From contig JAHBVV010000001.1 in assembly GCA_019637335.1 (NCBI GenBank), positions 875,440 through 939,439 on the forward strand: 64,000 nucleotides of DNA, written 5' to 3'. The position numbers were made by a program, and so were the translations under genes. Shown here piece by piece: positions 10,878-54,932 of this stretch. Source of the stretch: Candidatus Hydrogenedentota bacterium (GTDB lineage Bacteria; Hydrogenedentota; Hydrogenedentia; Hydrogenedentales; JAEUWI01). The number at the start of each line of letters is the position of its first letter. Position 1 is the first letter of the stretch. Below the pieces are notes generated by a model. It was not told the DNA's origin and did no database searches. It was given only the letters and a program-made list of their open reading frames with translations.

Positions 10878-10893
10878 TGGCGACTTCAATGCA
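10878..10893 (+). promoter_or_regulatory. Candidate sigma-54 promoter
   Basis: TGGCGACTTCAATGCA matches the -24/-12 consensus TGGCAC-N5-TTGC at the invariant GG and GC with correct spacing. It lies 52 bases upstream of the preferred start of the glycosidase-like gene. A similar box precedes the nearby PEP-CTERM gene. Chance occurrence in GC-rich DNA is possible. Confidence 0.35.
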
Positions 10894-42686: not shown

Positions 42687-44330
42687 CTAATCGCGGACCG
42701 ATGTCACCTCATACGCGCGCACTTCGAGCGCTTTCCCCTTCAGCAACACCTCGCCGATCGGCTTGCCCTCCACCTTATCGGAAATCCGCGACCACGTTTC
42801 CTCGCCAACAATGACCTGGCCCGGGCCGGCCAGGCTGCAAAAGCGGCTCGCCGTGTTTACCCGGTCTCCCACGACCGTATACTCCATCCGCATGGGCGAC
42901 CCGAAATAACCTGCCGTCACTTCGCCGGTGTCGATTCCGATACCAAGCTGGATGACGTGGCGGCCCTCTTTCTTCCGGACCTCGTTCAATTCGGCGTTGA
43001 GCTGCTGGATCGCCACCGCCGCCGAAACCGCCGCCAGCGCGTCGTTTTCGAGCGGCACCGGCGCGCCGAACACGGCCATAATCTCGTCGCCCACGTACTT
43101 GTCAAGCGTACCCTGGTACTGGAAGATGATTTCCGTCATCGCGGTGAAGTATTCGTTCAGCAGTTGCACCAGGTCCGCCGGCGCGATCCGCTCGGCAGTG
43201 TTGGTGAAGCCGCGGATATCGCAGAAGAGCGTACTGACCCGCGCGCGCTGCCCCCCCAGCTCCACCGCTTTTTCCTCGGACATGATCTTATCGACGATCG
43301 CCGGGCTCAGGAAGCGCCCGAACTCGATGCGCTTCATCTCCGCCTGCACCACCTTGTCGTGCAGGCGCACGTGGTCAATCGCCATCGCCGACTGCGACGC
43401 CAGCGACGCGAACAGCTCGAGATCCTCCTCGTTGAAGGTGACCTGGGGCTTGCGCGTGTCCAGGTAGATCGATCCGAGGATGCGGTCGTCGATTTTCAGC
43501 GGCACGCACATCGCGCTCATAATTTCGGACCGGATAATGCTCTCGCGCATGCCGAACTCGCTGTCGTTCTGGCTGTCCAGCATCAACACCGCCTCTCCGT
43601 CGATCGCCGCGCGCCCCGCGATGCCCATGCTGGGGGAACTCGCCTCCAGCTCCCGGCCCATCTCCCGCGCCACCTTGACGTTCAGGTTGTTCGTGTCCCC
43701 CTCCCGCAGCATGACAAAGCCGCGGTCCGCATTCATGACCTCCATGACCATGTCCAGCACCTGGGCCAGGCGCTCCCGCAGGTCGAAGCCGGACGCCATG
43801 ATCTGGCTGGCCTTGTGCAGCGCCGCCAGCCGCCGGTAGGCCCGGCTCATCTTGACAATTTCTTCGGGGGTCGCGGACACCTGCTCGCGCGGCTCGCCCA
43901 TAAACCGGGGCGTGGGCTGCCCGATCAGGGTCATGCTGTTGCCGATTTCGTCCATTTCCTCGCGGATTTTGTCCAGGTTCTTCACGAGGTCGGGATTGAT
44001 CGTATAGGGGGTCTCGTCCGGATTATCCTTGCCGTACTGGGTGTCGTCCCGGAAGACGAGGTGGCAGCGGCTGCCAAACCAGATCTCGTCCATGTGCGAG
44101 AGCACCCGCTCGACGATCCGCTGGCGGTTCACATAGGTCCCGTTGAGGCTCTTGAGGTCGAACAGCACCGACTTGTTGCCGACGCGGCATATTTTTGCGT
44201 GGTTCCGGGACACCTCGTCCGCCACCAGGACCACGTCGCTGTCCTCGGAGCGCCCGAAACGGGTTTCGTTGCCCGACAGCGGCACCGTCATCGGCGGCAC
44301 CCCCGGCTGTTCGATTATCACCTGTGGCAT
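42687..44330 (-). CDS. FHA-GAF-class III adenylate/guanylate cyclase
   Basis: 547 residues. An FHA domain (residues about 20-90: GRSEDSDVVL, SRNHAKI, SLNGTYVN) should bind phosphothreonine. A GAF domain follows (about 170-310: ASGFDLRERLAQVLDMVMEVMNADRGFVMLREG). The C-terminal class III cyclase has metal Asp in FCDIRGFTNTAER, second Asp in YVGDEIMAVFGAP and the NxxxR motif in DRVNTASRF. It probably makes cAMP in response to phosphorylation or ligand signals. ATG 44330 follows GAGGGA. No kinase partner is beside it. Confidence 0.92.
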   Translation of the reverse strand: MPQVIIEQPGVPPMTVPLSGNETRFGRSEDSDVVLVADEVSRNHAKICRVGNKSVLFDLKSLNGTYVNRQRIVERVLSHMDEIWFGSRCHLVFRDDTQYGKDNPDETPYTINPDLVKNLDKIREEMDEIGNSMTLIGQPTPRFMGEPREQVSATPEEIVKMSRAYRRLAALHKASQIMASGFDLRERLAQVLDMVMEVMNADRGFVMLREGDTNNLNVKVAREMGRELEASSPSMGIAGRAAIDGEAVLMLDSQNDSEFGMRESIIRSEIMSAMCVPLKIDDRILGSIYLDTRKPQVTFNEEDLELFASLASQSAMAIDHVRLHDKVVQAEMKRIEFGRFLSPAIVDKIMSEEKAVELGGQRARVSTLFCDIRGFTNTAERIAPADLVQLLNEYFTAMTEIIFQYQGTLDKYVGDEIMAVFGAPVPLENDALAAVSAAVAIQQLNAELNEVRKKEGRHVIQLGIGIDTGEVTAGYFGSPMRMEYTVVGDRVNTASRFCSLAGPGQVIVGEETWSRISDKVEGKPIGEVLLKGKALEVRAYEVTSVRD

Positions 44331-44594
44331 CGACAATCCCTCGTTCCGTGCGAATGATAGCAGGGTCCGCAAATCGGGTCAATGGCTGTTGGACTTGGAA
44401 AAGCCTTTGCCGGTACCATAGAGGCGTTTAGTCGCGGGTGGCGGCCCTTCGCAAGACACCAGCAAACCGCACCCATCGCCCCGTTCCCCGCAAGCGCCAA
44501 GGTTCCGACCCATTGCCCCCTTCTTATCAGAATCCGCCCTGCGCCCGGCCATTCGGCCCGGCTACTTCCCGCCTGGACGCCCCCGGAGCCGCCC

Positions 44595-51885: not shown

Positions 51886-52581
51886 ATGAAGACAGAACGG
51901 ATTCTGATCCCGATCGCGTGTATTGCCCTGGCTTTCAGTGGATGGGCCAGCGCCCAGAGCACGGCGCGCCCCGGGGCGCCGATCAAGACCCCGCGCATTG
52001 ACATCGGGACGCGGGTCAGCCCGCAGGCCAACATTGGCCGCGCGACGCGTAACAGCAGCGCCATCCGCGGCATTACGCATGGACGGCGACCCACGGCGGG
52101 CGGGCGTGTTCCGAGTGGACGCCTGCCGGGCGGGGACGTGGGCCGCCTTCCCGGGCACGCCCCGCTGGACGGCCTTTCGGGCCTGGACGGCAACCCGTTG
52201 AATGGATTGCTCGGGCAGTTTCTGCTCAATGAATACGGTTACGGCCGCCATTTCGACCCCTATGAGGGGCAAAAGGCCCTGGCCAAAGCCCACCGCGACG
52301 CGGCGATCGCCAATGCCATCGTGAATGTAGTGGGCATACTGGCCACCGCCAACCAGCCGGTGGTTACACCGGCCTGCCCGCCGGCCCAGCCCGCGTTGCG
52401 CGGCCATATCGAGCGGCAGCGCATTCTCGTACAGGAGGCGCGCGTGGAGGAATACCGGGTCTGGATTCCGGAATACACCATCCCGGAGACCGGTGAGGTG
52501 GTGGTGGGGCACCACGAAACGCGCCGGCGTGAGATACCCGCCGTGTACAAAGATCGAGATGTCTGGGTACCCGCCCCGTAG
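51886..52581 (+). CDS. Secreted hypothetical protein
   Basis: 231 residues with a signal peptide (RILIPIACIALAFSGWASA). The middle is low-complexity, rich in Gly/Pro/Arg (about 25-110). The C-terminal 100 residues are ordered, with KALAKAHRDAAIANAIVNVVGILA and a beta-rich end (VEEYRVWIPEYTIPETGEVVVGHHETRRREIPAVYKDRDVWVP) that recalls small periplasmic YXWV-type domains. AGGAGG precedes the ATG. Not recognised; it is probably a cell-envelope protein. Confidence 0.7.
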   Translation: MKTERILIPIACIALAFSGWASAQSTARPGAPIKTPRIDIGTRVSPQANIGRATRNSSAIRGITHGRRPTAGGRVPSGRLPGGDVGRLPGHAPLDGLSGLDGNPLNGLLGQFLLNEYGYGRHFDPYEGQKALAKAHRDAAIANAIVNVVGILATANQPVVTPACPPAQPALRGHIERQRILVQEARVEEYRVWIPEYTIPETGEVVVGHHETRRREIPAVYKDRDVWVPAP

Positions 52582-52959: not shown

Positions 52960-52988
52960 TTGTCGTACGGCAGATTTCGTACTATAAT
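52960..52988 (+). promoter_or_regulatory. Sigma-70-type promoter of the FHA activator-like gene
   Basis: TTGTCG-17-TATAAT, the best -10 match in the window. It lies 181 bases upstream of the ATG at 53169, with no other gene between. Confidence 0.7.
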
Positions 52989-53168
52989 GGCGTCAGGTTT
53001 TTGCGGGCGGGTGGAGAGGCGGTAGATACAAGGGGTTATTGTGTGTGAAGAGCGGGGTTGTAATGTGATAGCGCGCGGGCGCGAATTCGCGATCCCGGCG
53101 CGGCGCTGTGCGCCGTTTCCCTCCGCGCGAGGCGAGCGACGCCGCGCCCGGCAAGCGGGAGGCGCGGC

Positions 53169-54932
53169 ATGATCTGGCACCTCACCGCCAAGTCCGGCCC
53201 GCGCCGGGGCGAAAGCTGGGCGATTGGCGAACGCCCCGTCACGCTCGGTCGGGGTCTGAACTGCGATATCCACATTCAAGATCCCACGGTCTCCCGGCAA
53301 CATTGCCAGGTGTATCTGGAGGGGAACGAGGTCGTGTTTCGCGATCTCGGAAGCCGCAATGTTTCGCTGGTGAACGGCACGGTCGTCACCGAGGGGCGGC
53401 TGGCCCTGGGCGACGAGCTTTCCGTCGGATCCTCGGCCTTTATCCTCACGCGCACCGTTTCTTCGGAAAACACCGCACAGAACGGCGACGAGCCGCCGCC
53501 CTCCACGGTATCCCTGCGCAAGACCATGCTACCGCCCGACGCCATGGACCAGACGCCGGCGTACCGCTCTTTTCCGAGCACCGCGCACGATGTCTTCCGC
53601 ATGTTTCAGTTCGGGCGTCGCCTGAGCCGCGCCTCGTGCGAGGAGGCCTTTGCGTCCGCCTGCGTTCGGGAAATGGAGGGGCTCTTCCCCGAGGGCGTCA
53701 CCGTGGCGCTCTGGTGCGGGAACGAAAGCGACTACCAGTGGTACCCCGCCACGTTCGAGGCCAGCGACGAACTCGTGGCGCAGGTGAACGCCGCCATGGC
53801 CACCGGTCGTCCCTCGCTCGAACGGCACCGCAGGAAAGGCCGCCTGTTTCAGGATCAGCTTTTAGCGTGCGCCGCCCCGCTGATGGTCTCGGGCCATTGC
53901 CGGGGGGCCGTCCTGGCCACCTCGGCCGCGCGCCGCTATGTACTCAAGGACAGCGATCTGGAGCGCCTGGACGGCATCGCGCAGGCGGCGGCGCCCTTCC
54001 AGGTCTGGCGGTATGCCCCGGCCCGCGACCTCGATCACGAAAAAGCCCTCGATCACCTCGAATTGATCGGGGAGGGCTCCTCGGGCAATCTGCGGCGCGA
54101 GATTCTTACGGTTTCCAACTCGGGCCATTACGCGCTGATCACGGGCGAAAACAACGCGGCGGTGGCGCTGGCCGCGCGGCTGATCCACGATCGTTCGCAG
54201 GCGCCCCGGAAAGCGTATGTATGGGCCGACTGCAACAGCCTGGCGGGGCCGGACTTCTTCGAGGAGCTTGCCGGATGCGACGCGACGCACCCGGGCCTGC
54301 TGGAACAGGCGGAAGGCGGCACGCTCGTCCTGGCGAATATCGAGGCGCTTACGGATCAAAACCAGGCCGATTTGCTGGATGTCGCGATGCGCGGCGCCTA
54401 CCGGCGCGCGGGAGAGCAGAATAAGCGCGCCTTCAGCGGGCGAATTGTCGCCACCAGCAGCCACGACCCGGACGCCCTTCGGCGGGATGGGCGTCTCCGG
54501 GGGGATCTTCTCGCGCTCCTGGGCCGCCAGCATGTGCGGATTTCGCCGCTCGCCTACAATCAATACGCCATGGCTGCGGGAGAATCGGTGGACTCGCCCG
54601 ATGGCGACACGCCGTCGCAGGACGGTTTCCCCTCCGCGGGCAATGATGGGCGTATAGGCGGCTCCACCCTGGAAACCCGAGAGAAGATCGCCCGGGCCCT
54701 GTACCGCAGGGGCGTGAAACCGCCCAGCACGGACAGCCCCGCTCCGCGGCCGCGCGAGTATCACGATTCTTCGTTCGACGCGCTGGCCCAGGCGGAGGAA
54801 ACTCTCATTCGCGCGGTGCTGTCGCAATGCAACGGCGATCTGGAGCGCGCCGCCAAGGTCTTCGGCATCCCGCTTTCCGAGTTGCGACCCCTCGTCGAAC
54901 AGTTGAATGAGGCCCCCGGTCCCAACAGCTAG
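53169..54932 (+). CDS. FHA-GAF protein with degenerate sigma-54 activator ATPase
   Basis: 587 residues. An FHA domain (24-92; LGRGLNCDIHIQDPTVSRQH) is followed by a GAF-like region (about 140-285). Residues 300-480 align with the AAA domain of sigma-54 activators, but the Walker A GESGTGKE is GENNAAVA (326-333), the GAFTGA loop is deleted and Walker B (GGTLFLDE) is GGTLVLANI (383-391). It ends in a Fis-type helix-turn-helix (QCNGDLERAAKVFGIPLSELR). It should bind DNA and perhaps a phosphopeptide, yet cannot hydrolyse ATP. Probably a regulator evolved from a bacterial enhancer-binding protein. Confidence 0.85.
   Translation: MIWHLTAKSGPRRGESWAIGERPVTLGRGLNCDIHIQDPTVSRQHCQVYLEGNEVVFRDLGSRNVSLVNGTVVTEGRLALGDELSVGSSAFILTRTVSSENTAQNGDEPPPSTVSLRKTMLPPDAMDQTPAYRSFPSTAHDVFRMFQFGRRLSRASCEEAFASACVREMEGLFPEGVTVALWCGNESDYQWYPATFEASDELVAQVNAAMATGRPSLERHRRKGRLFQDQLLACAAPLMVSGHCRGAVLATSAARRYVLKDSDLERLDGIAQAAAPFQVWRYAPARDLDHEKALDHLELIGEGSSGNLRREILTVSNSGHYALITGENNAAVALAARLIHDRSQAPRKAYVWADCNSLAGPDFFEELAGCDATHPGLLEQAEGGTLVLANIEALTDQNQADLLDVAMRGAYRRAGEQNKRAFSGRIVATSSHDPDALRRDGRLRGDLLALLGRQHVRISPLAYNQYAMAAGESVDSPDGDTPSQDGFPSAGNDGRIGGSTLETREKIARALYRRGVKPPSTDSPAPRPREYHDSSFDALAQAEETLIRAVLSQCNGDLERAAKVFGIPLSELRPLVEQLNEAPGPNS

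Follow-up and report, generated by a model that had tools for sequence, protein, structure and literature searches.

We asked whether an open reading frame with the layout of a sigma-54 activator fused to an FHA domain, found in a 64-kb stretch of Candidatus Hydrogenedentota DNA (the window), is a working gene, and what its protein could do with its ATPase motifs gone. The initial annotation had described an intact gene, not a decaying pseudogene, for a protein that keeps the frame of an enhancer-binding protein (sensor, AAA region and Fis-type helix-turn-helix, HTH) with Walker A, GAFTGA and Walker B all lost.

The gene and its surroundings

The reading frame is complete and undisrupted, and its ATG start, preceded by GGGAGG, is backed by the orthologues, which share the N-terminus M-x-W-x-[LI]-T-A-K. 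The features of the locus are as follows.

51886-52581, forward strand: gene for a secreted protein with no Pfam family, the syntenic upstream neighbour, present in 4/4 genus genomes
52960-52988, forward strand: sigma-70-type promoter TTGTCG-N17-TATAAT, 10/12 match
53169-54932, forward strand: the whole gene, intact, 587 aa, FHA–GAF-like–degenerate AAA+–Fis-type HTH
53169-53456, forward strand: FHA domain, residues 1-96 (Pfam FHA, 58 bits, residues 24-87)
53568-54002, forward strand: GAF-like input domain, residues 134-278 (by alignment to a region of the intact paralogue L002 that scores as GAF)
54066-54554, forward strand: AAA+ alpha/beta subdomain, residues 300-462, catalytically degenerate (Sigma54_activat match and model)
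54144-54167, forward strand: former Walker A, now GENNAAVA (aligned to GETGTGKE of relatives)
54255-54296, forward strand: former L1 loop, GAFTGA absent, 8 residues shorter than in relatives (alignment)
54318-54341, forward strand: former Walker B, now GTLVLANI, D to A and E to N (relatives: GTLFLDEV)
54555-54770, forward strand: AAA+ lid remnant (AAA_lid_14 unmatched, pLDDT about 35)
54780-54914, forward strand: Fis-type three-helix HTH with an eroded recognition helix (HTH_8 and predicted fold)

Pfam matched Sigma54_activat (PF00158) to residues 307-451 of the window protein with 62 bits (cut-off 20.2); in a genome-wide scan the same protein reached 65 bits and 21 strong PF00158 domains scored 159-253 bits. 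HTH_8 was matched at residues 539-572 with only 16.1 bits, under the cut-off of 22, and AAA_lid_14 was not found in the window protein by Pfam; both orthologues exceed the HTH_8 cut-off and carry the lid. Pfam made no GAF call for residues 134-278 of the window protein itself, and this region has an alpha/beta pattern in a low-confidence model. Matches to PHROG and to the RtcR-type PADLOC system were set aside as due to the shared AAA+ domain only. We conclude that the gene encodes a degenerate sigma-54-activator homologue fused to an FHA domain. The enhancer-binding frame described for it holds for the order of the FHA, GAF-like and AAA+ domains and for the core fold; the lid is lost and the HTH is only partly kept.

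The promoter upstream had been called the best sigma-70 promoter in the window, and this agrees with our scan, where it is one of four sites matching at 10/12 positions, and no other among them has a perfect -10. In both orthologues the aligned -10 position reads TACAAT, and a GGGYGGAGAGGCGGTAGA-like stretch downstream of it is conserved. This stretch (about 53000-53040 in the window) lies inside a leader of ~180 nt, is conserved in G001 and partly in G002, and is possibly a leader element. The sigma-54-like promoters proposed at 10878 and 13988 did not hold up: they are two of 26 TGGC-N8-TGC matches in the window, where 15 are expected, and neither was found with the usual sigma-54 consensus with one mismatch allowed. 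The window also carries another FHA protein (42687-44338, reverse strand), which reads from its sequence as an apparent FHA–GAF–class III nucleotide cyclase; a gene of this kind also occurs near the G001 orthologue.

Motif losses across the family and within the genus

Homologues with the FHA–GAF–AAA+–Fis layout (E <= 1e-60) are carried by 42 of the 68 Hydrogenedentota genomes examined, with up to several paralogues per genome. We aligned 86 members of this family, consisting of three degenerate proteins and 83 relatives with intact catalytic residues. The relatives resemble the window protein in full-length homology, domain order and phylum, and every one of them keeps the Walker A Lys, the Walker B Asp and Glu, both arginine fingers (R162, the first, and R168, the second, in PspF numbering) and the sensor II Arg, with exact GAFTGA in the L1 loop of 70 and variants in the rest. 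In contrast, the window protein retains the first arginine finger only. The alignment therefore bears out the reported loss of Walker A, GAFTGA and Walker B and adds further losses. As 83/83 relatives show no variation at the catalytic residues, these losses are not chance.

The three degenerate members (the window protein, L016 on G001:C22 and L017 on G002:C468) are the only ones among the 86 that lack GAFTGA and Walker B, and both orthologues carry an unrelated loop in place of GAFTGA. Across the trio, in the order window protein and then orthologues, the Walker B Asp is replaced by Ala, Arg and Arg (the orthologues read R-E, with the Glu kept), the second arginine finger by Leu, Trp and Ala, and the sensor I Asn by Ser, Ser and Arg; all three have Leu in place of the sensor II Arg. 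The Walker A Lys is Val in the window protein, whereas it remains Lys in all 83 relatives and in both orthologues, the latter reading GEAGTGKE and GEVGTGKE. A search for orthologues with the same losses was thus answered in part: GAFTGA, the Walker B Asp and the second finger are gone from all three, but Walker A is kept outside the window species. Walker A, the Walker B Glu and the lid were lost in the window copy alone, and 23/53 family-conserved AAA+ positions are kept there against 30 and 32 in the orthologues; the window copy has decayed further than its two orthologues. The trio also has 28 alignment columns that are invariant within it yet rare among relatives, which suggests a state of its own and not random decay.

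The two orthologues, from the same genus, are 34-41% identical to the window protein. The trio forms one clade with a support of 1.0 in the tree, which did not resolve the sister group of this clade (long branch, weak support). A profile built from the trio scored its own members at 1025-1101 bits and the next protein at 410, and a scan of the genome contigs with this profile returned only the G002 orthologue and two FHA-only matches. The degenerate protein is conserved in one genus only among the 68 phylum genomes examined. In 3/4 genus genomes its gene sits just downstream of the secreted-protein gene on the same strand, and between G001 and the window the common gene order reaches much further on both sides. 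At the syntenic site of the fourth genome, G003, the secreted-protein gene and other neighbours are present and the activator gene was not found. Two control gene families pair G002 with G003 as sister species, so that G003 most likely lost the activator and the genus ancestor had it. The simplest account of the losses common to the trio is that they came before its three species separated.

Several observations accompany these comparisons. The secreted protein has a C-terminal YRVWIPEYTIPETGEVVVGHHETRRREI region, and its relatives occur in 31/68 phylum genomes. A related FHA-activator group comprises L005 (G000:C1:752027-753379), L098 and L100; its G001 and G002 copies read GAFTSA, and in its G000 copy, L005 (474 aa), the GAF-like domain is apparently absent. 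A FHA–GAF protein of 299 aa without AAA+ or HTH is encoded at G000:C4:256270-257097 (L004; L130), with relatives in L128 and L129. It is conserved in G000, G001 and G002, ends in KLRKQWGL, and represents a separate case in which a member of this family lost its output half.

Selection and predicted structure

Codon models were run on the three degenerate orthologues and, as controls, on two sets of three intact orthologues drawn from these species. Whole-gene omega was 0.10 (controls 0.044-0.047 overall), a rough value because synonymous sites are saturated, and omega=1 was worse by 169 lnL units. The domains differed, again as rough estimates: AAA+ omega was 0.153 in the trio versus 0.031-0.032 in the intact controls, HTH omega was 0.10 versus 0.06-0.07 and is thus somewhat relaxed, and FHA omega was 0.058, like the controls (0.035-0.069). 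Branch-specific omega values were unstable under saturation, and likelihood tests alone were used for single branches. With three branches modelled separately, freeing the window branch from omega=1 improved lnL by 9.7 for the whole gene and by 9.2 for AAA+, so that omega=1 was rejected for both; for the FHA domain alone, where changes are few, it was not rejected (lnL difference 1.7). These results support purifying selection on the window gene, although the branch average could mask constraint that was lost only very recently in the window species. Saturation and branch averaging limit the omega part of the argument; with an intact frame, rejection of omega=1 and the same locus in three species, the description of the gene as intact and not a decaying pseudogene is supported.

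In the FHA domain of the window protein 15/15 family-conserved columns are retained, with G27, R28, S42, R43, H45, N64, N69 and G70 (the GR, SRxH and N motifs) all kept. R28, S42, R43 and N64 are FHA phosphothreonine-contact positions, and the domain matches the GarA and OdhI FHA structures by sequence. Binding of a phosphothreonine peptide by this domain would be expected from these residues.

A model of the AAA+ domain plus HTH, made with eight sequences, had a mean pLDDT of 73.6, with about 90 in the alpha/beta core, about 35 in the lid region and about 89 in the HTH. Full-length AlphaFold2 with two sequences gave a mean pLDDT of 41 and no usable domain arrangement. The AAA+ core superposed on FleQ, PspF and NtrC1 chains with Z of about 23 and rmsd of 1.8-2.3 over about 160 residues, so the comparison with NtrC and PspF that had been proposed as a check returned a related fold; VpsR is also among the structural matches. 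The core is predicted to retain the PspF/NtrC1 alpha/beta fold and to have no lid. PspF and NtrC1 themselves (Z about 23 and 22.6-22.8) share this fold and are active ATPases with GAFTGA and a lid, which the window protein lacks.

At the output end, all three degenerate proteins have an eroded RSTLYRK motif in the recognition helix, with T changed to E in two, Y to R or E, and K to L, M or I. The window protein has thus probably lost the reading of enhancer DNA; some DNA binding by its HTH is possible, as the HTH fold is still predicted. HTH net charge (-3, -2 and +1 in the trio; mean +1.8, sd 1.7 in relatives) did not settle whether DNA binding is lost.

Possible roles of the degenerate protein

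ATP hydrolysis by proteins of this class needs the Walker motifs and arginine fingers supplied in trans, and contact with sigma-54 needs GAFTGA (PMC7175178). Because those motifs are absent, the window protein is not expected to hydrolyse ATP or to contact sigma-54, and its residues point to a loss of ATP binding as well as hydrolysis. Activators without GAFTGA are known, and what is new here is the unusually complete loss. In Caulobacter NtrC, the L1/GAFTGA segment is deleted by 8 residues, and the window protein has 8 fewer than its relatives; this NtrC and that of Rhodobacter capsulatus have a receiver domain, where the window protein has an FHA domain, and are reported to act at sigma-70 promoters (PMC10274813). 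Caulobacter NtrC needs Walker A and B residues and R. capsulatus NtrC needs ATP binding (PMC10274813), whereas the window protein has no ATP site left and an eroded recognition helix. VpsR of Vibrio cholerae (PDB 7v2b) is like the window protein in its AAA+ core fold and in having no GAFTGA, and is reported to work without ATP (PMC10274813, spelled VspR there); it is a c-di-GMP-binding regulator of sigma-70 promoters and has no FHA domain. Among the papers searched we found none on FHA-fused activators of Hydrogenedentota.

We suggest that the protein is a paralogue of the FHA-fused activators in which ATP use, sigma-54 contact and probably enhancer reading are gone, and that the gene would be kept for its FHA and GAF-like inputs and for the AAA+ core as a protein-contact surface. 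The FHA domain would most likely dock on a kinase-phosphorylated partner, and other regulators could then be modulated: the window protein might join intact FHA-activators as a dead subunit, sequester them, or serve as a phospho-adaptor. We give this reading, a pseudo-enhancer-binding protein acting by protein association, about an even chance of being right. The contrast between the untouched FHA domain (15/15) and the AAA+ domain (23/53) backs it, as does an AAA+ omega that is relaxed (~0.03 to 0.15) yet far under 1, and erosion of the DNA-reading helix besides the ATPase and sigma-54 losses favours a role in protein contact. Partners for such a role exist, since the 7.16-Mb assembly of the window genome encodes one RpoN and about 25 Hanks-type kinases in addition to its 21 activator domains. 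In Azotobacter, activators that are paralogues of one another have been reported to interact and probably assemble into hetero-oligomers (PMC9542535). On the other side, oligomerisation of an AAA+ core without its lid is uncertain, because the inter-subunit ATP site and the lid normally support the AAA+ ring. We infer both the identity of the partner and an inhibitory direction.

A more specific form of the proposal is that of an FHA-gated dead subunit, which on a phosphothreonine mark set by a kinase would join or cap rings of intact FHA-activator paralogues and so control sigma-54 transcription while itself neither using ATP nor binding DNA. We regard this form as rather unlikely.

The initial annotation had offered a repressor or decoy at sigma-54 enhancers, or a phosphopeptide-controlled DNA-binding protein. 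Activators without GAFTGA that moved to sigma-70 promoters kept DNA binding, some working without ATP (PMC10274813), and with a predicted HTH fold (pLDDT about 89) and VpsR among the structural matches one could picture an ATP-independent DNA-binding regulator, switched by FHA and GAF, as a sigma-70 activator or repressor or as an enhancer decoy. However, the recognition residues are largely lost in the trio, the window protein alone of the three scores too low for HTH_8, omega for the HTH is mildly raised and the sigma-54-like sites are near background. This weakens the repressor or decoy idea; the phosphopeptide half of the second proposal is favoured by the FHA positions, and its DNA-binding half is doubtful. 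Overall, we hold a DNA-binding role to be possible, with the chances well against it. A slowly decaying relic, on its way to loss, would explain why G003 has no gene at the syntenic site though its sister G002 has one, and why the window copy, the most eroded, has lost more than the others, including Walker A and the lid; the five-fold relaxation of AAA+ omega fits as well, and a branch average could mask recent loss of constraint. Yet 587 open codons, a whole-gene omega of 0.10 with neutrality rejected on the window branch too, a fully conserved FHA domain, a promoter region conserved in orthologues and shared losses that likely predate the species split make such a relic improbable. Least probable, and in our judgement very much so, is a pure FHA–GAF sensor or scaffold with inert AAA+ and HTH remnants: the 299-aa FHA–GAF-only protein of the genus suggests that the input half can work alone, but that clade arose independently, and the AAA+ core of the trio is under selection (omega 0.15), predicted to fold and marked by trio-specific conserved residues.

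The window protein has lost nearly the whole mechanism of its family and is nevertheless under selection with an intact phospho-reader. It offers a natural test of whether enhancer-binding proteins can become pure signalling or inhibitory subunits, and the three species form a stepwise series, with Walker A present in two and lost in one. In this uncultured phylum the protein may connect the sigma-54 network with signalling by Ser/Thr kinases.
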